A stretch of 30,881 nt of DNA from a virus. Below the pieces are notes generated by a model. That model had not been told where the DNA came from. It saw only the letters and a program-made list of their open reading frames with translations, and ran no database searches. Location: positions 1 through 30,881 of IMG/VR virus record IMGVR_UViG_3300044617_000932. One strand, written 5' to 3'. A program made the position numbers and the translations under genes. The stretch's first letter is position 1; every line of letters begins with the position of its first letter. Positions 1 through 20,311 of this stretch are shown piece by piece.

Positions 1-22
1 TAATTTTTGTTAGAATATTACA

Positions 23-625
23 ATGACAAGATCAGATATTATAAATGGTTTAATAAAAAAACATAATTATAAATCTTATTTAGAAATAGGCGTAAATACA
101 GCAGAACAACCCGGTTATAATTGGCCCAATATTAAAGTAGAATTAAAACATGGCGTGGATCCAGAAGTTGATACTACATATAAAATGACTTCTGATGAAT
201 TTTTTGAAAATCATATTTCCCAAAAATATGATTTTATTTTTGTGGATGGTTTACATATTTTTAATCAATGTTATAGAGATGTTTTAAACTCTTTGAAACA
301 CTTAAACGACAATGGAACTATTATGGTTCATGATTCCAACCCTTTATCTGAAATAACACAAAGACCAGAAAGAGCAAGTTCGGTTTGGCATGGAGATGTT
401 TGGAAAGCTATTGTAAAATTAAGATTAACAAATGAAAATGTTGAAATTTACACAGTAGATACCGACGAAGGTTGTTCTATAATCAGAAAAGGAAAGCAAA
501 AACTTTTAAAATTAAAAGAAAATTTTAAAGAAGAAGATATTTATTCATATAATGTATTAGAAGCTAATCGTAAAAAACTTTTAAATCTAATTACGATAGA
601 AGATTTTGTAAAAAATTATCTTTGA
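23..625 (+). CDS. SAM-dependent methyltransferase-like protein
   Basis: This 200-residue protein resembles small class I methyltransferases of the Methyltransf_24 type. A motif-I-like strand and turn (YLEIGV) lies at residues 19-24. An acidic strand with a VDG-LH motif follows at about 73-78, and a strand ending in HDSNP lies at 103-107. This fits a Rossmann fold that uses S-adenosylmethionine. The substrate is unknown; related genes in phages and bacteria often sit in glycan or cell-surface modification clusters, and a glycosyltransferase-like gene lies two genes downstream. The ATG at 23 is the first good start. Its TGA stop overlaps the ATG of gp46 by one base, so the two are probably translated together. 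The fold is fairly secure, the function is not. Confidence 0.7.
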   Translation: MTRSDIINGLIKKHNYKSYLEIGVNTAEQPGYNWPNIKVELKHGVDPEVDTTYKMTSDEFFENHISQKYDFIFVDGLHIFNQCYRDVLNSLKHLNDNGTIMVHDSNPLSEITQRPERASSVWHGDVWKAIVKLRLTNENVEIYTVDTDEGCSIIRKGKQKLLKLKENFKEEDIYSYNVLEANRKKLLNLITIEDFVKNYL

Positions 626-6800: not shown

Positions 6801-6836
6801 AACCCACAACGGCATTGACTGTTGTGGGTTTTTTAT
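6801..6836 (+). terminator. Rho-independent terminator
   Basis: A perfect 10-bp stem pairs AACCCACAAC (6801-6810) with GTTGTGGGTT (6821-6830) around a 10-base loop, and a T run follows. An A run on the left makes it likely to work in both directions. It ends the unit of the 140-residue gene. The loop holds TTGACT, which could be the -35 box of the next gene. Confidence 0.9.
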
Positions 6837-6842
6837 TATTAT
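6815..6842 (+). promoter_or_regulatory. Promoter-like TTGACT-N16-TATTAT embedded in the terminator
   Basis: TTGACT at 6815-6820 lies in the terminator loop. TATTAT at 6837-6842 follows after 16 bases, in the T-rich tail, and TATATT at 6840-6845 is an alternative -10. The ATG of the radical-SAM gene is at 6849. The 8-mer CATTGACT is also the -35 region of uvsX, which supports its being real. Confidence 0.45.
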
Positions 6843-6848
6843 ATTTTT

Positions 6849-8204
6849 ATGCATAACGATATTGAAAATAATTTATTTAAAAAATTAAATGAAAATTTTC
6901 AAAAACTTAATATTAAAGATATTTTATTAAAAGATTTTGAAAAATACAGTGTAGATTTTTATCAAAAACATAAAAACAAATATGATGCTCAAAATTTAAT
7001 AAATTATGAACCAATTGATGATTTAATCAAAATTGTTTTAGATCATTATAGCGAACAAACAAAAAATCCAAATCCACTAGCAAATTTAAATAAAGAAAAA
7101 CTTAAAAATCATTCATTTTTTAAAAATAAACCTTATGTTTGTTCTGCACCATGGACAACACTTCGGTTTGGATTCGATGGAAAAATTACAGTATGTTGTA
7201 TTAATGATTTATATGATTTAGGTTTTTATCCAGAAACAAAACCAATCGAAGCTTGGTTTGGAAAAGCTATTAAAATTTTAAGAGATTCATTAAAAAATTT
7301 TGATTTTTCAAAAGGATGTCAATTTTGTGAAAGATTTATTTTAAATAACACCGCTGATATTTCAGTAATACATTTACAAGAAGAAATAGGTTTAGGTAAA
7401 GATGTAAATAAAAAATATCCATCACAATTAATATTTCAACTACACAATACTTGTAATTTTGAATGTATAATGTGTGGAGGTATATATTCATCATCAATAA
7501 GAAAAAATCGTGATGGTCTTCCAAATTTTAAAAATATTTATGATGAAAATTTTTTAAAACAAATTGAAATTTTTATAAAAAATACAAGAATTATTGAATT
7601 TATAGGTGGTGAACCATTGCTCATACCAATTAACTATGAATTGATGGAATTAATTATAAAACATAATCCAGAATGTGAAGTAAATGTTATATCCAATGGT
7701 TCCGTATATAACAATAAAATAGAAAATATTTTTAAAAAACTTTTAAATTTAAAAGTTCATATTTCTTTAGATTCAATTAACCCAAAAACGTATTCATTCA
7801 TAAGAAGAAATGGAAATTTAGAAACTATAATGTTAAATATAAAAAATTTAAAAAAAATAAACAAAATGGGATCAATTGCTGTGTGTCCATTGATACAAAA
7901 TATATATGAAATTCATGATATTATAAATTTCTGTAAAAGTATCCCTACGGATATATGGTTTAATACTGTAGAATCAACGCTTGGTCTTACTATGTATGAT
8001 GATGTATACGAAACGGGTTTAAATAAAAGACCATTACAAGCCAATCCACCAAAATCATGCGAAAAAATACCGGAATTTAGACTTAGGTATTTATCAAAAG
8101 AAAAAAAAGAAGATGTTATTAGATATTTAAAAAAAGAAAAACACCCAAATATATATCAAAACAAAATAGATGGTCTTATAGAATATATTTTATCAACAGT
8201 TTAA
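6849..8204 (+). CDS. Radical SAM protein with Cys-rich N-terminal region
   Basis: This 451-residue protein has the radical-SAM iron-sulfur motif C-x3-C-x2-C at C202, C206 and C209, and a GGEP motif at 253-256 that contacts the methionine of SAM. Before this core lies a region with C98, C116, C117, C157 and C160 (SAPW, then KITVCC, then GCQFC), like the SPASM/twitch clusters that usually follow the core. Here the auxiliary cluster precedes it. Phage homologues are known, but their substrates are not. I chose the ATG at 6849; an in-frame TTG at 6822 lies inside the terminator stem. The gene is flanked by a terminator on one side and the uvsX promoter on the other, so it looks like an independently expressed cargo gene. 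The reaction is unknown. Confidence 0.85.
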   Translation: MHNDIENNLFKKLNENFQKLNIKDILLKDFEKYSVDFYQKHKNKYDAQNLINYEPIDDLIKIVLDHYSEQTKNPNPLANLNKEKLKNHSFFKNKPYVCSAPWTTLRFGFDGKITVCCINDLYDLGFYPETKPIEAWFGKAIKILRDSLKNFDFSKGCQFCERFILNNTADISVIHLQEEIGLGKDVNKKYPSQLIFQLHNTCNFECIMCGGIYSSSIRKNRDGLPNFKNIYDENFLKQIEIFIKNTRIIEFIGGEPLLIPINYELMELIIKHNPECEVNVISNGSVYNNKIENIFKKLLNLKVHISLDSINPKTYSFIRRNGNLETIMLNIKNLKKINKMGSIAVCPLIQNIYEIHDIINFCKSIPTDIWFNTVESTLGLTMYDDVYETGLNKRPLQANPPKSCEKIPEFRLRYLSKEKKEDVIRYLKKEKHPNIYQNKIDGLIEYILSTV

Positions 8205-8245: not shown

Positions 8246-9355
8246 ATGGCTAAAACAAAAAATACAGACATTACAGAAAACACCGCATTGGAAGTTGGTG
8301 ATATCCAAGATGCGTTTGAAATTCTTGATAACCTTAATCCAGAAGCATCATTTCTCTCAGAAAACTCTTTATCCAATGTCAAAGAGTGGATAGATACAGG
8401 TTCTTTGGCTTTAAATGCCATTATATCAGGTTCTTTATATGGAGGAATACCTATGGGAAGACTTACTGGTTTTATTGGACCAGAATCTTGTGGAAAAACA
8501 TTGATGGCTAATAAAATTATGGCAAATGCACAGAAAAAAGGTATGCATGTTGCTTATTTTGATACTGAAGGTGCTTTGGATGAAGACACAGCCAAGAGAT
8601 TGGGTTGTGATTCCGCTAAAATCAAACATGTACCAAGCGAATTGACTGAAAACTGTAGAAATCAGATCGTAAAATTTTTAGATACAGTTGTTGAGAAGAA
8701 ACTTCAAGGAAAAGTATTAGTTGTTATTGATTCTTTGGGTAATTTAATCACAGCACAAGAAAAAAGAAAGATCGAAGAGGGTAGCGATACTCCTGATATG
8801 GGAAACAGGGCAAAAGCATTGAAATCCATGATGAGAGCAGTTACACACGCGGCTGCAAAGGCAAATTGTCCTGTTATTTTCACCAATCACGTTTATGAAG
8901 ACCCATCTCAAATGCATCCAACAGCTATTAAAAAACAAGCTGGTGGTTCTGGACCTTTGTATATGGCATCCGTGATTATCCAGATGGCTAAAAAGACAGA
9001 AAAAGCGGGTGACAACAAAAATAAGGATGCAAATGATACGATTGCGCCTATGGCAAAGGACATAAATGGTCTTACGCTGAGGGCATTTACAACAAAAAAT
9101 CGATTTGTGCCTCCGTTTCTTGAGATTGAGATGTATTTAAACTTCAGAACAGGTCTTAACAAGTATTCTGGTCTTTTAGAAATGGCAGAAGGATATAATA
9201 TTATTCAAAAAAATGGGCATAGATATGTTTTAGGTGATGAAAACTTAGGTTTTTTCAAAGAATGGAAAGATAGTGATGAAGTTTGGAGCAAAATTTTACC
9301 ATTACTTGAAGATAAACTTAAATCTGAATTGGTTTTTAAAAACGAAAATAACTAA
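8246..9355 (+). CDS. uvsX: UvsX RecA-like recombinase
   Basis: UvsX is the phage RecA: it coats single-stranded DNA and drives strand exchange for recombination-dependent replication and repair. The Walker A loop GPESCGKT is at residues 78-85. An ATP-lobe strand ending in AYFDTEGALD and a Walker B strand (VLVVIDSLGNL) follow. The KKQAGGSGPLYMAS segment is the DNA-binding-loop region typical of phage UvsX. Its 369 residues compare with 391 in T4. Its own promoter lies just upstream, and its TAA overlaps the ATG of the gp41 helicase by one base, so the two form an operon. It would act with gp32 (12619), while the gp46 gene upstream is split. Confidence 0.95.
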   Translation: MAKTKNTDITENTALEVGDIQDAFEILDNLNPEASFLSENSLSNVKEWIDTGSLALNAIISGSLYGGIPMGRLTGFIGPESCGKTLMANKIMANAQKKGMHVAYFDTEGALDEDTAKRLGCDSAKIKHVPSELTENCRNQIVKFLDTVVEKKLQGKVLVVIDSLGNLITAQEKRKIEEGSDTPDMGNRAKALKSMMRAVTHAAAKANCPVIFTNHVYEDPSQMHPTAIKKQAGGSGPLYMASVIIQMAKKTEKAGDNKNKDANDTIAPMAKDINGLTLRAFTTKNRFVPPFLEIEMYLNFRTGLNKYSGLLEMAEGYNIIQKNGHRYVLGDENLGFFKEWKDSDEVWSKILPLLEDKLKSELVFKNENN

Positions 9356-10749
9356 TGATTGAAAAAGAACTATCATTAGACTTTGATTATTTTGAAAAAA
9401 TAATCATATACAATGCGCTTTTTGATCAAACATATCTTGAAGCTATAATTGATTTTATCAATCCAATTTATTTCAAAGATAAAAATATTAAGGAGATTTT
9501 TGCTTTACTTAAAAGTTTTTATCTTACACATAAAATTCTTCCAAACCATACGGAACTGAAAGCTTGTTTGACAACATCAGAACAAAAAGAATCTTTTAAG
9601 TCAGTTGTTTTATCTTTTAATTCGATTGATAAAAAATACAATAAAGAATTGCTTTTAAAAAATACTGAAAGATTTTTAAAGGAAAAAGCTGTTTTACAAA
9701 CAATAAAAGAAACATCTATTGATGCAAGTAGTGGTGAAATAGATAGCTCTAAAATATTAAAAAAATTTGAAAACGCTTGTGGTGTTTCATTAACTACAAA
9801 TATTGGATTTGATTATCTTGAAGAGATTGATAAACATTGTAAAGATCTTACACAAGTGTTTGCAACAATTTCTTCCGGTTGGAAATGGCTTGATAAGCAT
9901 ATTGGTGGTGGTTTTATGGCGGAAGGTAGGTCGTTGTATGTGTTTTTTGGTATTACTAATGTAGGAAAATCAATATTTTTGGGAAATATAGCTACAAATA
10001 TTTTAAATCAAAATAAAACAGTTGTTTTAATCTCTTTGGAGATGCCCGAACAAGTTTATGCGAGAAGAATTTCAGCACAATTGACCAAAATACCTTTTGA
10101 TGATTTGAAATTACAAATAACTCCATTAAAAAGTCATTTACATCAATATAAAATCAAAAATAAAGATTCTAGACTCATTATTAAAGAGTTTCCACCTCAA
10201 TCTTTAACAATTCTTCAATTAAAAACATATATTAACAAATTGATTCAAAAAGGAATTAAACCAGATGCGGTTATTGTTGATTACATCAATTTATTGGCTC
10301 CGCCAACAAATGGATTAAGCTCATATGAAGCTATAAAAAAAATAACAGAAGGAATGCGTGCTTTGTCTTATGAATTTAATTGTCCATTCATATCAGCAAC
10401 TCAAGCAAACAGACAAGCCGTGAATATGGTTCAACCAGACATGGGAAAAACTAGTGAATCCATGGGATTGGCACATACTGTTGATGCCATGATTTCAATT
10501 TGGACCGAAGAAGGCGATTCTGATCTAGGAATAATCCATATGGGTATAGAAAAAAATAGATATGGTCCAAGAGAAGTTTATACACATTTAAATATCGATT
10601 ATCCAACTTTATCATTAACTGAACCCGACGATTTAGTTCAACAAAATTCAATAAAAGGAAATGTACCAATGTTAACAACAAATCTTGACGATGAAGTAAA
10701 TTCAAATATCATGGATACATTAAACATGATTGATAACATGACTTCTTAA
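9355..10749 (+). CDS. 41: Replicative DNA helicase (T4 gp41, DnaB-like)
   Basis: This is the hexameric 5'-3' helicase that unwinds DNA ahead of the replication fork and works with a primase. An N-terminal DnaB-like domain occupies about residues 10-145. The RecA-like motor follows, with Walker A GITNVGKS at 199-206, LISLEMPEQVYARR at about 225-238 (motif H1a with its catalytic Glu), Walker B IVDYINLL near 307-314, and a Gln/Arg sensor region (SATQANRQ). Its 464 residues match T4 gp41 (475). Translation is coupled to uvsX by the one-base TAATG overlap, and a DHH phosphoesterase gene starts one base after its stop. No gp61 primase is visible in this window. Confidence 0.93.
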   Translation: MIEKELSLDFDYFEKIIIYNALFDQTYLEAIIDFINPIYFKDKNIKEIFALLKSFYLTHKILPNHTELKACLTTSEQKESFKSVVLSFNSIDKKYNKELLLKNTERFLKEKAVLQTIKETSIDASSGEIDSSKILKKFENACGVSLTTNIGFDYLEEIDKHCKDLTQVFATISSGWKWLDKHIGGGFMAEGRSLYVFFGITNVGKSIFLGNIATNILNQNKTVVLISLEMPEQVYARRISAQLTKIPFDDLKLQITPLKSHLHQYKIKNKDSRLIIKEFPPQSLTILQLKTYINKLIQKGIKPDAVIVDYINLLAPPTNGLSSYEAIKKITEGMRALSYEFNCPFISATQANRQAVNMVQPDMGKTSESMGLAHTVDAMISIWTEEGDSDLGIIHMGIEKNRYGPREVYTHLNIDYPTLSLTEPDDLVQQNSIKGNVPMLTTNLDDEVNSNIMDTLNMIDNMTS

Positions 10750-13486: not shown

Positions 13487-13978
13487 ATGACAAGAGAAGA
13501 TGCGCTTGAGGTTGCTAAAATGGCAGTATTTGCTGGTAGTCAATTAAAAACAATTGATAGTTATACATCTGAAAGAACGAACAATCCAGCAAATAAAATT
13601 GATATAAATAGATTTATAGCTCCAATTAAAAACCCAAACATCAAACTTAACACAGCTAGCTATTTAAATCAATATCCTAATGGGTTTGCTCCACCACCAC
13701 CGGAAGATTATATTCAAAATGCTGAACCGGATCGATCTATAGGTGGAACTTTAACCACAGTTCATACAAATGAACTGCAACAAGTACCCGTATCTTTACC
13801 GATAGCGGTTCCAGCAAATCTTCCAGTAGAAGATAACTCAAAAAAACCCGAAAAATTAAAAACAATAACGCAACAAGATTCAGTTTTAACAAGAAACGAT
13901 ATTGACAGTATTAAGAATTCTTTAAAAAACATTAATAATTCATTAAAAGGTATTATTGAAGTTTTAAAATCTAAATGA
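13487..13978 (+). CDS. Unknown proline-rich protein between gp32 and gp45
   Basis: I do not recognise this 163-residue protein. The N-terminus (MTREDALEVAKMAV) is helical. The middle, at about 60-125, is rich in Pro, Asn and Val and probably flexible, with a PPPP run near residue 65. The C-terminus is a Lys/Asn/Ser-rich helix. Upstream is one of the few clear Shine-Dalgarno matches in this window (AAAGGAT, 8 bases before the ATG). It starts one base after the gp32 stop and ends four bases into gp45, so it is co-expressed with both replication proteins. It might link or scaffold them, but no function is shown. Confidence 0.6.
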   Translation: MTREDALEVAKMAVFAGSQLKTIDSYTSERTNNPANKIDINRFIAPIKNPNIKLNTASYLNQYPNGFAPPPPEDYIQNAEPDRSIGGTLTTVHTNELQQVPVSLPIAVPANLPVEDNSKKPEKLKTITQQDSVLTRNDIDSIKNSLKNINNSLKGIIEVLKSK

Positions 13979-14730
13979 GCGAAATATTGATACCTGTTCC
14001 AAAAACATCTTTGGAAAAACTATTGAAACCAGTTAATCGTTTGACGGATTCATGTGTTTTAAGATGCAGTGATGATTGTTTATATACATTGTGTTCATCA
14101 ACTGATAATAGCGTTATTCTTTATGGAACAACAAATACACCATTAGCGGTTGATAATTTAAAATTAAACATTATCAGTATAAAAAAACTATTAACTGGTT
14201 TGGATTGTTTAGGTGATGATGGAGAATTTAAAATTATAAAAAACGAAAATCATATTGTTTGCAAATCATTTGATCCATCAACAAATGAAGAAAGTTATTT
14301 TAAATACCATCTTGTTGATGATAATATCATCAAAGAATCGCCTGTAAAAATTTCCAATATCTCCAATTTGAGTTTTGATATTGTTTTTGAAATTTCCATT
14401 GCAAAAATGAAACAAATCATCTCTGCTTATTCTTTTGCAAATGATGTAAATAAAATATATTTTTACACAAAGGATGATTTTGTTTTTATAGAAATTGATG
14501 ATAAGGAAAATCAAAACACTGATAATATATCTTTGATGGTTTCAAATTCATTTAGCGGAAAAGCTCTCATGGATCCCATCGCAACAAAAATTGAGATCTT
14601 TAAACTTTTATCTTCAAGCAAATCACCAATAAAAGTAAAGATATGCACCAATCCAAAAGTTCTTCTTTTTGAAATACAAGAAGATGAAAATACCCAATTA
14701 AAATATATAATTTCTGCACTTGTTAAATAA
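13975..14730 (+). CDS. 45: Sliding clamp (T4 gp45)
   Basis: gp45 is the trimeric ring that tethers DNA polymerase to DNA and, in T4, also activates late transcription. The protein has the alternating beta-strand and helix pattern of clamps, the double repeat of the clamp domain, an acidic surface and a C-terminal strand ending in KYIISALVK like other phage clamps. Its 251 residues are somewhat longer than the 228 of T4. The ATG overlaps the previous stop codon by four bases. The stop codon lies inside a perfect 12-bp inverted repeat just before the next gene. Identity is supported by pattern and by context next to gp32 and gp43. Confidence 0.85.
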   Translation: MSEILIPVPKTSLEKLLKPVNRLTDSCVLRCSDDCLYTLCSSTDNSVILYGTTNTPLAVDNLKLNIISIKKLLTGLDCLGDDGEFKIIKNENHIVCKSFDPSTNEESYFKYHLVDDNIIKESPVKISNISNLSFDIVFEISIAKMKQIISAYSFANDVNKIYFYTKDDFVFIEIDDKENQNTDNISLMVSNSFSGKALMDPIATKIEIFKLLSSSKSPIKVKICTNPKVLLFEIQEDENTQLKYIISALVK

Positions 14731-14752
14731 TTTACATGTGGTAAATTATTTA
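14724..14752 (+). repeat. 12-bp A+T-rich inverted repeat spanning gp45 stop and next start
   Basis: The arm at 14724-14735 pairs perfectly with 14741-14752 (12 base pairs, one of them G-C) around a 5-base loop. The gp45 TAA stop (14728-14730) lies in the left arm, and the next ATG begins at 14754. It could be a weak terminator, an mRNA-end stabiliser, an operator or a hairpin that controls translation of the next gene. It has no T run. Confidence 0.6.
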
Positions 14753-14753
14753 T

Positions 14754-15077
14754 ATGGCAAAAAACAAAATAACAACTGTTGGATATTTTATAAAAAGGTT
14801 AAGGGATTGTGGTTATATAACCGATAAGGTATTTACTGATTATAACCTCCACGATCCTAGATCATGGACAGTTGTGGTTGATCCCAAAAATACTTCTGTT
14901 TTTATAACTTGTTTCAACAATCATAATTCTTTGGGTGAAGAATATTTTGAACTTAATGATGGTGGACAATTTATACCAGAAAGATTTAAATTAAAAACAA
15001 GTTCAATTGAAACAATTATTGAATATCTTGTTAAATTTAATATAAATAATAAAGCAAGAGGATACAATGGCAAATAG
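14754..15077 (+). CDS. Unknown 107-residue protein after gp45
   Basis: I do not recognise a family. The protein has a TVGYFIKRLRDCGYI helix, a SWTVVVDP-x5-VFITCF strand pair, a LGEEYFELNDGGQFIP region and a C-terminal helix followed by a basic tail. It looks like a compact alpha/beta domain and is probably conserved, because such Gly/Asp/Trp-rich turns are unlikely by chance. Its ATG lies just past the inverted repeat, and its end overlaps the next gene by 11 bases. The context suggests a replication or middle-expressed accessory role, but none is shown. Confidence 0.6.
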   Translation: MAKNKITTVGYFIKRLRDCGYITDKVFTDYNLHDPRSWTVVVDPKNTSVFITCFNNHNSLGEEYFELNDGGQFIPERFKLKTSSIETIIEYLVKFNINNKARGYNGK

Positions 15078-15444
15078 AAAAAAAACAACAAATAACTCAT
15101 TGTCATCACAGAATTTAATATCTGAAAAAAAATTAAATGATGATGATCTCATTGATCTTCAAAAAAAGGTTTTTGATGCCGTTCATAATTTGGAACTCCA
15201 AAGAAGTTTAGATAAAATGCTAAAACAACATGTGCATGAAAATCAAATTATAAAAAGAGATTTTTCAATATTAAAAGATGCAATATCAGAGTATCTTGAT
15301 TCTTTTTTGGTTTTAGGTTATTCATTAGATGGTGATCGAATAGTTATTCAACATTTTAAATCACCCAAAGACAAAGATGCTATTGTTGAATTTATGAAAA
15401 ATATATTTTTAAAACAACAAAACGAAAACTTTTTTGGTGAATAA
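15067..15444 (+). CDS. Unknown 125-residue helical protein
   Basis: I do not recognise this protein. The first 25 residues are basic and Asn/Ser-rich. The rest is mainly helical with Lys/Glu/Leu repeats. A FSILKDAISEYLDSF helix and a LGYSLDGDRIVIQHF hairpin are the clearest elements. A good Shine-Dalgarno match (AGAGGA, about 6 bases before the ATG) starts it, in contrast to most genes here. It overlaps the previous gene by 11 bases, and its TAA overlaps the next ATG by one base, so it is in the same unit. Confidence 0.6.
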   Translation: MANRKKTTNNSLSSQNLISEKKLNDDDLIDLQKKVFDAVHNLELQRSLDKMLKQHVHENQIIKRDFSILKDAISEYLDSFLVLGYSLDGDRIVIQHFKSPKDKDAIVEFMKNIFLKQQNENFFGE

Positions 15445-16478
15445 TGGCTACTCTTTTTCCAAATACAGAAACTTGCTTTGTCGATCTTTCGTCCAACGGA
15501 TTAAATCCATCACTTTTTCCAGTTGGAACAGCACAACACCTTGATATAAATTATAATATTCTTCCGTTTTTATGTGATTTGTTAAAAGCAACAACTGATA
15601 ATAACGTAAGTCCACTTTTAACAGAAGGTCCAACACCATTTGATTTAACTCCATATACTGATTTTTCTATGTTGACGGGTGTTGGCGATCCAAGAGCTTC
15701 TTTGGGTGAAACGATGACACAAACATACATACATTTTTTACCTAGAGTTATCACACAGACAGAAGTTCGACAAGCGGGAGGAACACAAGTTATAGATAAC
15801 TATATATGTACCGATGACGGTTCTCCAATTAAAATATCTGAAACAATCCCTGTTCTTTTATCTTTGGATTTAACAGGCAAAAAACCATATCAATATGGTG
15901 CAATAACAGTTCCACCTGTTTCTGCAACTTTTTCCGAATTAATGAGGATAATTGATCCACAAGAAGTAAAAGATTTTGTAAATTCTTATATAAACGGAGC
16001 AAGAGAAAGACATGCTGAAGATTTTTCCAATTTTATAAAACAATATTTTTCGGATTGGAAAATTTTAAGTATAGATGTATACGAAGCCACCAAACATTTA
16101 ATTGTTAGTTTGAAAAAAAACAATAAAACAGCATATATAAAATATCATAGTGATGTGGCACAGACAGTTGGATGTCTTTTAAAGTTAAAAGAAGTTAAAT
16201 ATTTTTATTCCTATCAACCACCAGAAAACATGGCTTTAAGTATGGCTATGTCATCATTGATTAAAAATTTTAAATTGTTGATGCAAAACCCAAAAGAAGC
16301 TGAAAAGTATAGAGATTTGATAATAAACAATTATTCATCAACTCCTGATCAATCATATTCTTCATTGTCTCAAAATCCAACAGCCGCTCAATTATATTAT
16401 AATAGTTATTCATCAAATATTAATTCCATTAATGCTTTAAATCCACAATTGACATCAATAAAAATTGTTGAGTGTTAA
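15444..16478 (+). CDS. Unknown 344-residue protein at the strand switch
   Basis: I do not recognise this protein. The N-terminal half (about residues 1-165) is rich in Pro, Thr and Gly with beta-strand patterns. The middle has a KDFVNSYINGARERHAEDF helix. The C-terminus is Ser/Tyr/Asn-rich low complexity, as in many virion proteins. It is the last plus-strand gene, and its stop interlocks with the stop of the convergent needle gene. It could be a structural or accessory tail protein read from the replication side, which would be unusual, or an unrelated middle gene. Only its existence is well supported. Confidence 0.6.
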   Translation: MATLFPNTETCFVDLSSNGLNPSLFPVGTAQHLDINYNILPFLCDLLKATTDNNVSPLLTEGPTPFDLTPYTDFSMLTGVGDPRASLGETMTQTYIHFLPRVITQTEVRQAGGTQVIDNYICTDDGSPIKISETIPVLLSLDLTGKKPYQYGAITVPPVSATFSELMRIIDPQEVKDFVNSYINGARERHAEDFSNFIKQYFSDWKILSIDVYEATKHLIVSLKKNNKTAYIKYHSDVAQTVGCLLKLKEVKYFYSYQPPENMALSMAMSSLIKNFKLLMQNPKEAEKYRDLIINNYSSTPDQSYSSLSQNPTAAQLYYNSYSSNINSINALNPQLTSIKIVEC

Positions 16479-18643
16479 AAAGCATTGAAAGATGTTAATA
16501 TATTAAAAGTGGAAACTGTTTGATCGTCGGTAGTATCACAACCTAAATCCAAAGATGGTGGTGGATTTAAACTACCATCAGGATTAAATTTTAATGCTGT
16601 CACGGGAACAAAATTTGTTCCATTATAAACATTATTATACGCATTTGGGTCAAGACCATATTTTTTGTTTCTGTTTTTTGCATTTGGACCACCACCACCA
16701 AAAGGCCATATACAAGGAATACAAAGCTCTCCCATATTTTTATGTCCGGGTTTTGTTCCAGTTCCTTTTTGTTTTGGTGGCGATGGAACATGGCTTGGAT
16801 TTGGTCTGGAAGCTCTTGCGGCATTATTTGTTCCTACATAATTTCCTTGGAAAGCTGTATAATCATGAGAATGATTGCTACCGGGGCTACCATGATTGTG
16901 TGTAAAATTATAAACAGGGAATGTTTGACCGGGAACAACAAAAGTGTATACAAATGTTACCGGATAAGGTCCAGCAAAAGCTACACCATTAACAAGCAAT
17001 GGTGGTCCAGAAGGAAGTCCGGGTGGCGCAAAATATGTTGTACCAAATCCAGCAGGCATTCCTAAATTTTCTACACCAATACTTAAAATTGCAGTTGAAT
17101 ATGTTTCCTCAACCAAAGTTTTAAGCTCTGCCATACCATTTATTATGTTTAAACTTAAAACATTGAATACATCTCGACTGATTTTTTTGTAAATTTTATC
17201 ATATTGATCATAAATTGTGGCTTGCAATCCTGTAAATGGATTATTCCATTGTGCATTTGATTGAACTTGATGCGAAGGACCAGATGGACCTGTGGCAATT
17301 CTTTCGCCGGGAGCGGTAATGTGTGTGCAATATATGCCACCATCCATTGATATAGCACCTTTAACAGCCAAATCACCATTTACATTCAATGCACCCGTTG
17401 CTTTAACATTTTTTGCGTCTAATAAAATACCATCATCTCCAGAACGGTCATTTCCATCTATTATAATATTTTTTCCTTTTAATGTTGTAACATTATTTGA
17501 TGAAACTGTAAGTTCTCCTTTTGCTGATGTTATAACTATATCTTCTGCTTTTACATTCAATCTTCCACTTGTTAAAGTCTCGATACCGGGAGAACCAGTT
17601 TGAATTGTAAATTTTTCTGCAACAGTTAAGCTTAAACTTCCGGGATTTTGTAATGGTGGACAATAAACAGCCTTTTTACAATTACCTTTTGAACTAGGAA
17701 TAAACCCAACTTCATTATTTTCAAATCCAAATGGTATTGTGCCATGATGTTTTGTTAAAGCAACAGTTGGTGATTGATTTATAGCATCAGGTTGACCAAC
17801 AAATAAAGCAACATCACCACTAAATGGTCCAAAAACCTTTGTTCCACCCGATCCCATCTTTTTTTGAGCATCATTTAATTCTTTTTGTTTTGATTTTAAC
17901 TCCTTTGCAGCATTTTCATTTGCATCTTGAATGTCTTTTTGTGGACTTTTACAAGTACCACCTTTACAACCGGGACTTCCACAACCTTTACCCCCATTTA
18001 TTTGTTTAACTTCTTCTGGTGTGAGAAAGGGTATAGCTAAAAAATCCAAAAGTTTTTGTAAAATATCTAAAGGATATGGAAAATTTGGTATTGCTAAACG
18101 AATTAACTTCCAAACAAGATCGAGCAAACATTGTCCCCTATCCGTTAATACTGTCATTGAACAAGTTGGACATGGCACATCGGTTCCTTCACCTTTTTCT
18201 ATCGCTTCAACCTTTTTTTTATCAATATCTAATGCAATTTGTTTAGCTTTTTTTGTTGCTTCTATTTCTTCTTTTTTTGAACTACCAACAGTTTCTTGAT
18301 GATCACCTTTTATGACTGTATAATAATCACCTTGATTAACTATTTGAACATCACCAGCAATTGATTGGTAAAAATTTCCTTTTGAACCTATAAAAACATC
18401 ATTTCCTTTAATTGTAAGGTTTCCGTTATTCAATTGAAGAAGGGCTTTTGCTTTATCTTGCAAGAGAACATAAGAATTATCTTGTGGTTGAGATGATCCA
18501 TTAAGGCTTGGAAAAACATCCGTCCTCATTTCCAAACCACCAGCTTCAGTATAAAGCCCACTTTGTTCTTTTTTTCCTAAATCGGAAAAATCAGTACCCT
18601 CTGTATTTGAATAATTGAATACTGGTTTGTTTGTTTTTGCCAT
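16475..18643 (-). CDS. Baseplate needle-like beta-helical protein with metal-binding motifs
   Basis: This 722-residue protein follows the gp5 hub gene. It contains a long run of short beta repeats at about 335-440 (alternating V/I strands and Gly/Asn turns), as in the beta-helical needles of gp5 and VgrG proteins. In T4 the needle is the C-terminus of gp5, but here it is a separate gene. Two HxH pairs (H582/H584 and H591/H593) resemble the metal-binding tips of phage spike proteins. Cys clusters lie at 158-172, 221-231 and 641-644. A Lys/Glu-rich helical stretch (about 230-265) breaks the sequence. The role is probably puncturing the outer membrane or wall at the baseplate tip. A TAAATA motif lies 6 bases before the ATG. 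The beta-helix call is moderate, the exact role inferred. Confidence 0.65.
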   Translation of the reverse strand: MAKTNKPVFNYSNTEGTDFSDLGKKEQSGLYTEAGGLEMRTDVFPSLNGSSQPQDNSYVLLQDKAKALLQLNNGNLTIKGNDVFIGSKGNFYQSIAGDVQIVNQGDYYTVIKGDHQETVGSSKKEEIEATKKAKQIALDIDKKKVEAIEKGEGTDVPCPTCSMTVLTDRGQCLLDLVWKLIRLAIPNFPYPLDILQKLLDFLAIPFLTPEEVKQINGGKGCGSPGCKGGTCKSPQKDIQDANENAAKELKSKQKELNDAQKKMGSGGTKVFGPFSGDVALFVGQPDAINQSPTVALTKHHGTIPFGFENNEVGFIPSSKGNCKKAVYCPPLQNPGSLSLTVAEKFTIQTGSPGIETLTSGRLNVKAEDIVITSAKGELTVSSNNVTTLKGKNIIIDGNDRSGDDGILLDAKNVKATGALNVNGDLAVKGAISMDGGIYCTHITAPGERIATGPSGPSHQVQSNAQWNNPFTGLQATIYDQYDKIYKKISRDVFNVLSLNIINGMAELKTLVEETYSTAILSIGVENLGMPAGFGTTYFAPPGLPSGPPLLVNGVAFAGPYPVTFVYTFVVPGQTFPVYNFTHNHGSPGSNHSHDYTAFQGNYVGTNNAARASRPNPSHVPSPPKQKGTGTKPGHKNMGELCIPCIWPFGGGGPNAKNRNKKYGLDPNAYNNVYNGTNFVPVTALKFNPDGSLNPPPSLDLGCDTTDDQTVSTFNILTSFNAF

Positions 18644-18649
18644 ATACTT

Positions 18650-18655
18650 TATTTA
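18650..18655 (-). promoter_or_regulatory. Late-promoter-like TAAATA before the needle gene
   Basis: On the minus strand TAAATA lies 6 bases before the ATG at 18643, and its TAA is also the stop codon of the gp5 gene. It matches 6 of 8 positions of the T4 late consensus TATAAATA. The same placement recurs at 21558, 26922 and 28691. Confidence 0.4.
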
Positions 18656-20311
18656 GCCAATTGATTGAATATTGGAAGGGTCGTAAACTTGTCCCATATA
18701 TATTGGTCTTTGTGGACTACCTCCCTCAAACATAATCCAAACCTTTGCACCAACCATTGGTATGGAAAAATTTCCAACAGGACCGCCAAATCTTGACATA
18801 TTAACGCTACCATAAGCATTGACCCCTTGGTTTGTTGTTCTTATTACTAATCTTTCTCCTGATTTTGATCCATCAGCTAAAGGTTCGTTTCTTGTGATTT
18901 TTTCCCAAGTTGCTTTTCCTATAGTAGCACCCAAACCGTTATTGGGACCAATACCAACGGCAAATCCACCATAATCTTCACTACGCATGATAGCATCTCC
19001 CACAAAAAGTTTTGCTCTTAAAGCTAAATCCGCACTATCCAGAATTTCATCGGCTGTATAATCTCTATCTGGATCCAATCCATAACTTTTGGCTAATTCT
19101 CTATTATTAGTGCCTTTTTTATTAGCCCAACTTTTTATTTGAGCCGGACCAACTTGTAAAATACCAAAAGAACCACCGGGGTCTTTTAAATTAATTGTAC
19201 GGTTTTGATAACTGGATTCATAAGATGCTGTTTTAGCCCAAAATGTAGCCCAAGATTCAGGCGTTCCATTCAAACCATATGATTGTCCATTTCTTGGTAT
19301 ATTTTTACTATTATAAATTGAATTCGGATTATTTTTTATATATGTCAAAGCAGTATTATATACATCACCGGGAGCAACAAGACTAAATTTATCTTGAGCC
19401 AAACCGGAAAAACCACCAGAAACACCATAGGTTTGTTTAAAATCCGCATTTGAATTATTAATACCATCATCTGCGGTTTCTCTATTATCTGGATTAGCTG
19501 CAACGGCGGTTTGAGAACTACCATTTACGGAATAATTTGCATATTTCCCCAAATCTTGTTTATTTATTTGCCAATGCCATGGTTCTTTTTGTGTTCCACC
19601 AACACCTCTATTATCTGGACCAGATCTACCAACATAATTTGACCATCCATATTTGGAAGCATTATTAGCCAACCATGTATAAGCTTGCTCTTTAGTTGTT
19701 CCACCCGCACCTACAAAATCAAAAGCCAGCCCATAGCCATGATTACTTGTTCCGGGTGTTGCTGCTAAATCAGGTTTTCTTCTTTTCAAATCAACTTGTT
19801 GATCAAATGTTCTATAAGAATCAGTTAATCCTAAATTAACACCATCCGCTTTTGCTGCTGTTACTAGTTCTTGAAATTTCCCAGCAACTATTGGATGAGC
19901 ATAATGTCCATTAAAACCTTCAACCGGAACCAATTGATTTTTATTATTTGGATCCAATCTACCATTTGAACCATCCAAAGATATACTATTGTTGAATGCG
20001 GAATCGGAAGGAATAACATATGGATTTTGTGATGATGTTTCTGTAAAAGAACCCGTACCACCACCCCATAAAGGCATTGCGGGACGCGCCCAAGGTAATG
20101 TTTTTTTCAACCTTGATAACAATGTTGATGGAAATTTATCGGATGTCGGTGAAGCAAAATCAATATCCGTTTCTAAATTGTTCCAACCGTCATACAATGG
20201 ACCATTTTTTCCGGGAACAAATACTTTAACTCTACCTAAATCATCAGGATCACTTGATTCAACAACTAAACCAACATATGCACCAAAAAATAATTCATCT
20301 TTGACAGCCAT
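18653..20311 (-). CDS. 5: gp5-like baseplate hub with M15 peptidase and transglycosylase inserts
   Basis: This is a gp5-type tail hub protein. The OB fold is split: residues about 8-85 (VGLV...DPDDLGRVKVFVPG...PWARPAMP) give its first part and residues 505-545 (SIPMVGAKVWIMFEGG...PIYMGQV) its second. Two peptidoglycan-cutting domains are inserted between them. Residues about 140-250 are a VanY-like M15 peptidase with the zinc ligands H191, D198 and H246, a catalytic E243 and R167 in the DSYRTF motif. Residues about 350-450 resemble a lytic transglycosylase/SLT domain, with E365 as candidate catalytic Glu and GILQV at 383-387. T4 gp5 carries only one lysozyme domain, after its OB fold, so this arrangement is unusual. 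The protein would cut both peptide and glycan bonds as the tail tip crosses the wall. The domain calls are strong; the hub role is inferred from the OB fold and neighbours. Confidence 0.9.
   Translation of the reverse strand: MAVKDELFFGAYVGLVVESSDPDDLGRVKVFVPGKNGPLYDGWNNLETDIDFASPTSDKFPSTLLSRLKKTLPWARPAMPLWGGGTGSFTETSSQNPYVIPSDSAFNNSISLDGSNGRLDPNNKNQLVPVEGFNGHYAHPIVAGKFQELVTAAKADGVNLGLTDSYRTFDQQVDLKRRKPDLAATPGTSNHGYGLAFDFVGAGGTTKEQAYTWLANNASKYGWSNYVGRSGPDNRGVGGTQKEPWHWQINKQDLGKYANYSVNGSSQTAVAANPDNRETADDGINNSNADFKQTYGVSGGFSGLAQDKFSLVAPGDVYNTALTYIKNNPNSIYNSKNIPRNGQSYGLNGTPESWATFWAKTASYESSYQNRTINLKDPGGSFGILQVGPAQIKSWANKKGTNNRELAKSYGLDPDRDYTADEILDSADLALRAKLFVGDAIMRSEDYGGFAVGIGPNNGLGATIGKATWEKITRNEPLADGSKSGERLVIRTTNQGVNAYGSVNMSRFGGPVGNFSIPMVGAKVWIMFEGGSPQRPIYMGQVYDPSNIQSIG

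Follow-up and report, generated by a model that had tools for sequence, protein, structure and literature searches.

The hub protein of the bacteriophage T4 tail tip, gp5, contains a contiguous OB fold with one lysozyme after it and, in the same chain, a beta-helix that is cut off by proteolysis (PMC3004832). The T4 hub sits between tube and spike, and tail contraction drives it into the periplasm, where the enzyme opens the wall (PMC3004832). Diffocin provides a known case of a tail hub with two lytic activities: its tail-tip protein CD1368 alone carries both a lytic transglycosylase and an endopeptidase (PMC10996793). A survey of pelagimyophages revealed unusually diverse gp5 clusters and proposed adaptation to the host wall; an insertion slot is not described in the accessible part of that survey (PMC7029224).

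We analyzed a window of 30,881 bases, positions 1 to 30,881 of the IMG/VR record IMGVR_UViG_3300044617_000932, with T4-like genes for DNA polymerase, UvsX, gp41 helicase, a gp32-like SSB, gp17 terminase, tail tube and a gp25-like wedge protein. The nearest cultured terminases were only ~30–36% identical to that of the window, which places the virus in a group without close cultured members, and no DNA similarity to phage records was found. Two ORFs (622–1317 and 1416–2348) match the SbcC/gp46 family (phrog_77), each over a successive part of it, and its first third was not seen; a radical-SAM-like ORF (6822–8204) showed weak similarity to QueE, and five plus-strand ORFs from the SSB to the spike gene (13487–16478) had no PHROG match. 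The features of the hub locus are listed in Table 1.

Table 1 Features of the hub locus in the window and of fused hub–spike genes in related contigs (prefix L)
Feature	Position	Strand	Basis
Hub gene, 552 aa; OB fold split around two lytic domains	18653..20311	-	Profile matches; orthologues in same gene order
OB fold, N-terminal half, residues 1–86 (strands 8–18, 28–31, 74–77)	20054..20311	-	HMM of orthologues, E 5e-33; joined-halves Pfam/PDB matches; model
M15/VanY peptidase domain, ~residues 113–262 (H191, D198, E243, H246)	19525..19975	-	Pfam VanY, E 1.8e-15; VanYB fold match, Z 12.7
Lysozyme-superfamily/SLT-like domain, ~residues 300–480 (E365, GILQV)	18872..19414	-	10-sequence profile; PDB lysozyme/SLT matches, E 2e-3 to 5e-3
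OB fold, C-terminal half, ~residues 505–545 (strands 523–529, 536–541)	18677..18799	-	Phage_base_V, 509–543 = profile 41–75; HMM, E 2e-30; model
Central spike, gp5C-like beta-helix, separate gene, 722 aa	16475..18643	-	Profile match to T4 gp5 beta-helix; adjacency; fusion in relatives
Conserved gene directly upstream of hub, 412 aa	20314..21552	-	Weak tape-measure-like PHROG matches
Hub and spike fused in one ORF, 1074–1246 aa	L073:16139-19600, L076:11733-15473, L083:15907-19443, L105:4989-8588, L107:4983-8207		Gene-order comparison

The initial annotation had placed two lytic domains between the halves of a single OB fold. Its coordinates, 18962–19894, correspond exactly to residues 450–140 of the hub ORF, all five residues named there lie at the positions claimed, and profiles, orthologous sequences and a modeled structure all bore out the split fold. 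Pfam Phage_base_V matched the window hub in two stretches (E 2.8e-10); the C-terminal one corresponds to profile positions 41–75 and the N-terminal stretch in relatives to positions 1–32, so the two pieces are complementary. When residues 1–86 and 509–551 were joined, the best Phage_base_V stretch spanned the junction (profile 31–75) and the E-value fell to 9e-13, and a profile of 17 joined halves matched T4 gp5 49–99 without gaps (51 vs 51 positions, E 2–3e-3). The N-terminal OB half had no credible match among 50,697 phage records. A structure model had been proposed as a check, and the AF2 model, a monomer built from natural sequences only, indeed closes residues 7..544 into one barrel, which superposes on the contiguous OB fold of P1 Gp5 3..83 (78 residues, rmsd 2.6, Z 8.2) and likewise on VgrG 9jg9 and Streptomyces CIS Vgr 9gtr. 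Mean pLDDT was 67, with ~90 in the best OB strands and the VanY core; the pTM of 0.38 says nothing of the relative placement of domains. A previous AF2 model from a mixed-cargo alignment was discarded (pLDDT 44, pTM 0.29). Profiles and model together support the view that the protein is probably a gp5-type hub of the Phage_base_V kind, with its two end segments as the halves of one OB fold.

The assignment of the first inserted domain to M15/VanY was unambiguous: Pfam VanY matched residues 136–248, VanYB in the PDB matched by sequence (E 1e-9), and the hub model superposed on VanYB over 126 residues with an rmsd of 3.0. The zinc peptidase motif SxHxxGxAxD ... E..H is present. For the second domain, annotated as an SLT-like transglycosylase, membership in the lysozyme superfamily held, but the window protein had no match to Pfam SLT (PF01464) even at E 1 and so did not reach the curated cut-off, below which the matches of three relatives (L033, L068 and L114) also remained. 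In the PDB, the 10-sequence profile, in which E365 is invariant, matched C-type lysozymes as well as one SLT protein, and E365 fell on their catalytic Glu. The structure comparison list of the hub model was filled by VanY relatives, and the absence of lysozymes from it is uninformative. The domain therefore seems better called lysozyme-superfamily/SLT-like than SLT proper. Judging from the intact motifs, the window hub may cut both peptide and glycan.

Analysis of neighboring genes showed that the same upstream gene adjoins the hub in nearly all orthologous loci, and that in most the spike follows the hub directly or is fused to it. A profile built from the first 140 residues of each of ten spikes matched the T4 gp5 beta-helix (best E 0.0044), consistent with a beta-helix spike encoded separately downstream of the hub in the window and fused to it in five relatives. 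By analogy, the T4 gp5 chain would be divided here between a pair of genes, with the division close to the domain border at which proteolysis cuts gp5 in T4.

The window hub thus resembles T4 gp5 as an OB hub beside a beta-helix spike with a wall-cutting domain, but its cargo lies inside the OB fold and comprises two domains, and its spike is a separate gene; it lacks the combination of contiguous OB fold, lysozyme and beta-helix in one chain that defines T4 gp5 in the strict sense. The annotated contrast with T4, whose lysozyme lies behind a contiguous OB fold, agrees with the literature (PMC3004832) and with the ungapped match of the joined halves, by which the T4 OB fold is unbroken. In diffocin CD1368, by contrast, the hydrolases are C-terminal on a gp27-like hub with none in the OB fold, and the glycan cutter comes first and NlpC/P60 second (PMC10996793). 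Cyanophages of the Kyanoviridae have both glycan- and peptide-cutting domains in the tail gene cluster, and their VanY is up to ~40% identical to that of the window; however, the VanY and SLT/glucosaminidase domains are separate tail proteins encoded between gp26 and gp5, and the gp5 examined has an unbroken OB fold and carries no enzyme. Similarly, Pelagibacter phage HTVC008M gp5 has a T4-like OB fold and a gp5C-like helix, but direct reading of its sequence showed a contiguous OB fold without the insert. The OB fold is a single stretch of 78–84 residues in phiM9, OLIVR5 and phiM12, and in Cr30, S-SSM6b and DSL-LC03 the match runs across the junction; all the cultured T4-like phages examined, including T4, cyanophages, HTVC008M, phiM9, phiM12, OLIVR5 and Cr30, have an unbroken OB fold. 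VgrG payloads of the type VI secretion system are C-terminal extensions or are bound to the tip. VgrG proteins with effector domains share with the window hub an OB spike with exchangeable payloads, but not their location in an OB loop.

A search of IMG/VR with the window terminase yielded 80 related contigs, and a search with the OB halves yielded 57 loci, some on the same contigs. HMMs of both OB halves identified 58 distinct proteins with both, 51 after removal of near-copies, of which 48 were similar enough to be placed on a tree. Scanning IMG/VR with the whole hub found only L008 and L009, and the N-terminal halves of 21 hubs gave an alignment too diverse for use in scanning. Nearly all of the 48 non-redundant orthologous hubs come from uncultivated T4-like viruses; no cultured member of the group was found, all relatives being IMG/VR contigs. 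In all 48 hubs the same OB loop, at the end of the N-terminal half and mostly behind a GGGT turn, holds an insert of 115–514 aa, and three more distant proteins have inserts of only 28–57 aa. By Pfam, the inserts include VanY, M23, M15_3, Phage_lysozyme (GH24), Phage_lysozyme2, SLT, GDSL lipase (SGNH) and Amidase_5/CHAP, several of these matches lying under Pfam's own cut-off. A further CHAP-like family, the first domain of L119, L120 and L123, is suggested by a Cys and a His that are both invariant, together with a weak match in the PDB. The peptide cutter precedes the glycan cutter in all 11 of the two-domain inserts with both parts classable (the window, L008, L009, L010, L016, L028, L033, L053, L093, L120 and L123); these are not independent events, since some of the inserts owe their common first or second domain to descent. 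Several relatives' inserts have no recognized fold, profiles of the L063/L042/L094/L134, L071 and L047 kinds matched nothing meaningful in the PDB, and a few inserts (L052, L061) look unstructured; thus not every insert need be an enzyme. SleB-like and RlpA-like identities had been guessed by eye for inserts and were dropped.

Two contigs depart from the single-hub arrangement. In L027, tandem hub genes (16955–18163 and 18165–19241) have OB halves that are 78% identical and differing inserts, SGNH/GDSL-like in one and of no assigned family in the other; a hetero-trimeric tip is possible. In L039, the OB halves lie in two ORFs (8925–9311 and 9319–9951) in different frames, with 7 bases from the stop to an ATG restart; this arrangement, seen on one contig, may reflect a natural split, a frameshift or an assembly error.

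Comparison of closely related hubs revealed OB halves that were 72–95% identical around unrelated or strongly diverged inserts. OB identity was 95% between L037 and L078, against 31% in the insert; for L073/L083 (78%) and L070/L071 (72%) no insert similarity was detectable, and for L114/L119 (82%) only 7% of the insert was alignable. OB and insert identity are uncoupled. The contigs are collinear on either side of the insert, and DNA homology is lost over it, the breaks lying inside the insert or about 25 nt at most from its borders; between L037 and L078, for instance, identity was 88% as far as 16952 and resumed at 17490 with 93.5%. Exchange also affects individual domains: L008 and L010 have a common second domain (57%) behind VanY in the former and M23 in the latter, the M23 domain being 44% identical to that of L134, and L016 and L028 have a common first domain and different second domains. 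On the OB tree of the 48 hubs, cargo labels required 37 changes (minimum 28, shuffled mean 42) and clustered mainly among near relatives. At the level of sequence comparison, these data demonstrate a conserved slot whose cargo is exchanged between viruses.

We favor, with a probability of roughly 0.8, the reading that this is a gp5*-type OB hub of a T4-like contractile tail whose strand 3–4 loop serves as an exchangeable payload slot, occupied here by a VanY/M15 and a lysozyme-like domain used at entry. All relatives being uncultured contigs, the exchange might instead reflect chimeric assemblies joined at conserved OB sequences; this is very improbable, since the inserts are in frame in the complete ORFs, dozens of contigs have the same two flanking genes, and one and the same architecture recurs in separate samples (L010/L011, L028/L066/L093, L041/L043/L072). 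The topology could also differ if the OB halves paired with the neighboring protomer in a strand-swapped trimer, making the insert a linker between subunits, not a loop insertion. Such pairing would suit the long low-confidence linkers flanking the cargo in the hub model, which covers only a monomer, and the two-ORF arrangement in L039; nevertheless, the closure of the barrel in that monomer, its superposition on contiguous OB domains and the very short inserts of the distant relatives make it unlikely.

As for function, inserts that look unstructured or lack a recognized enzyme fold would fit mainly wall-binding or structural domains, or a service in lysis at the end of infection. We doubt this account, because the catalytic residues are kept in the window, with E365 invariant in ten sequences, unrelated wall-cutting families have been recruited repeatedly, and the hub adjoins the spike gene. 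A broader proposal, which we regard as tentative, is that the strand 3–4 loop is a general payload port in this virus group, open to nearly every kind of small domain, non-lytic kinds (SGNH esterase-like, unknown folds) among them; with two hub paralogues of different payload in some viruses (L027), several activities could reach the host envelope from a single tip.

Under the exchangeable-slot reading, entry and wall opening as by the T4 hub would be the simplest use. The hub would form a trimer with the tail tube on one side and the separate beta-helix spike on the other, and every OB barrel would close around its own insert; upon tail contraction the tip would carry the enzymes through the outer membrane, and these would open the peptidoglycan at the entry point. 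Insertion in a loop leaves both OB ends free for tube and spike, which may explain the tolerance of many cargos. Recombination would replace the insert, whole or one domain at a time, with the barrel intact, and the slot would thereby adapt the tail tip to the host wall. We infer the trimer, the enzymatic activity, the use during entry and host-wall adaptation as the driving force.

The position of the insert within the OB fold and its swapping appear to be new; we found no description of such a slot in the open-access literature, where absence is no proof. The parts are ordinary; their arrangement is unusual and recurrent, and the general exchangeable slot across the whole virus group is more interesting than the domain pair in the window. 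It gives a concrete anatomy to the wall adaptation proposed in the pelagimyophage survey (PMC7029224). Whereas tail-tip lysins are known, here unrelated enzymes have been inserted repeatedly at one loop of the tip barrel, either alone or as a peptidase followed by a glycosidase. The slot could reveal the wall bonds whose cleavage a phage needs for entry into a given host, could help to infer host wall type from genomes of uncultivated phages, and could point to a site at which extra domains are tolerated in the contractile tips of phages used in the laboratory.
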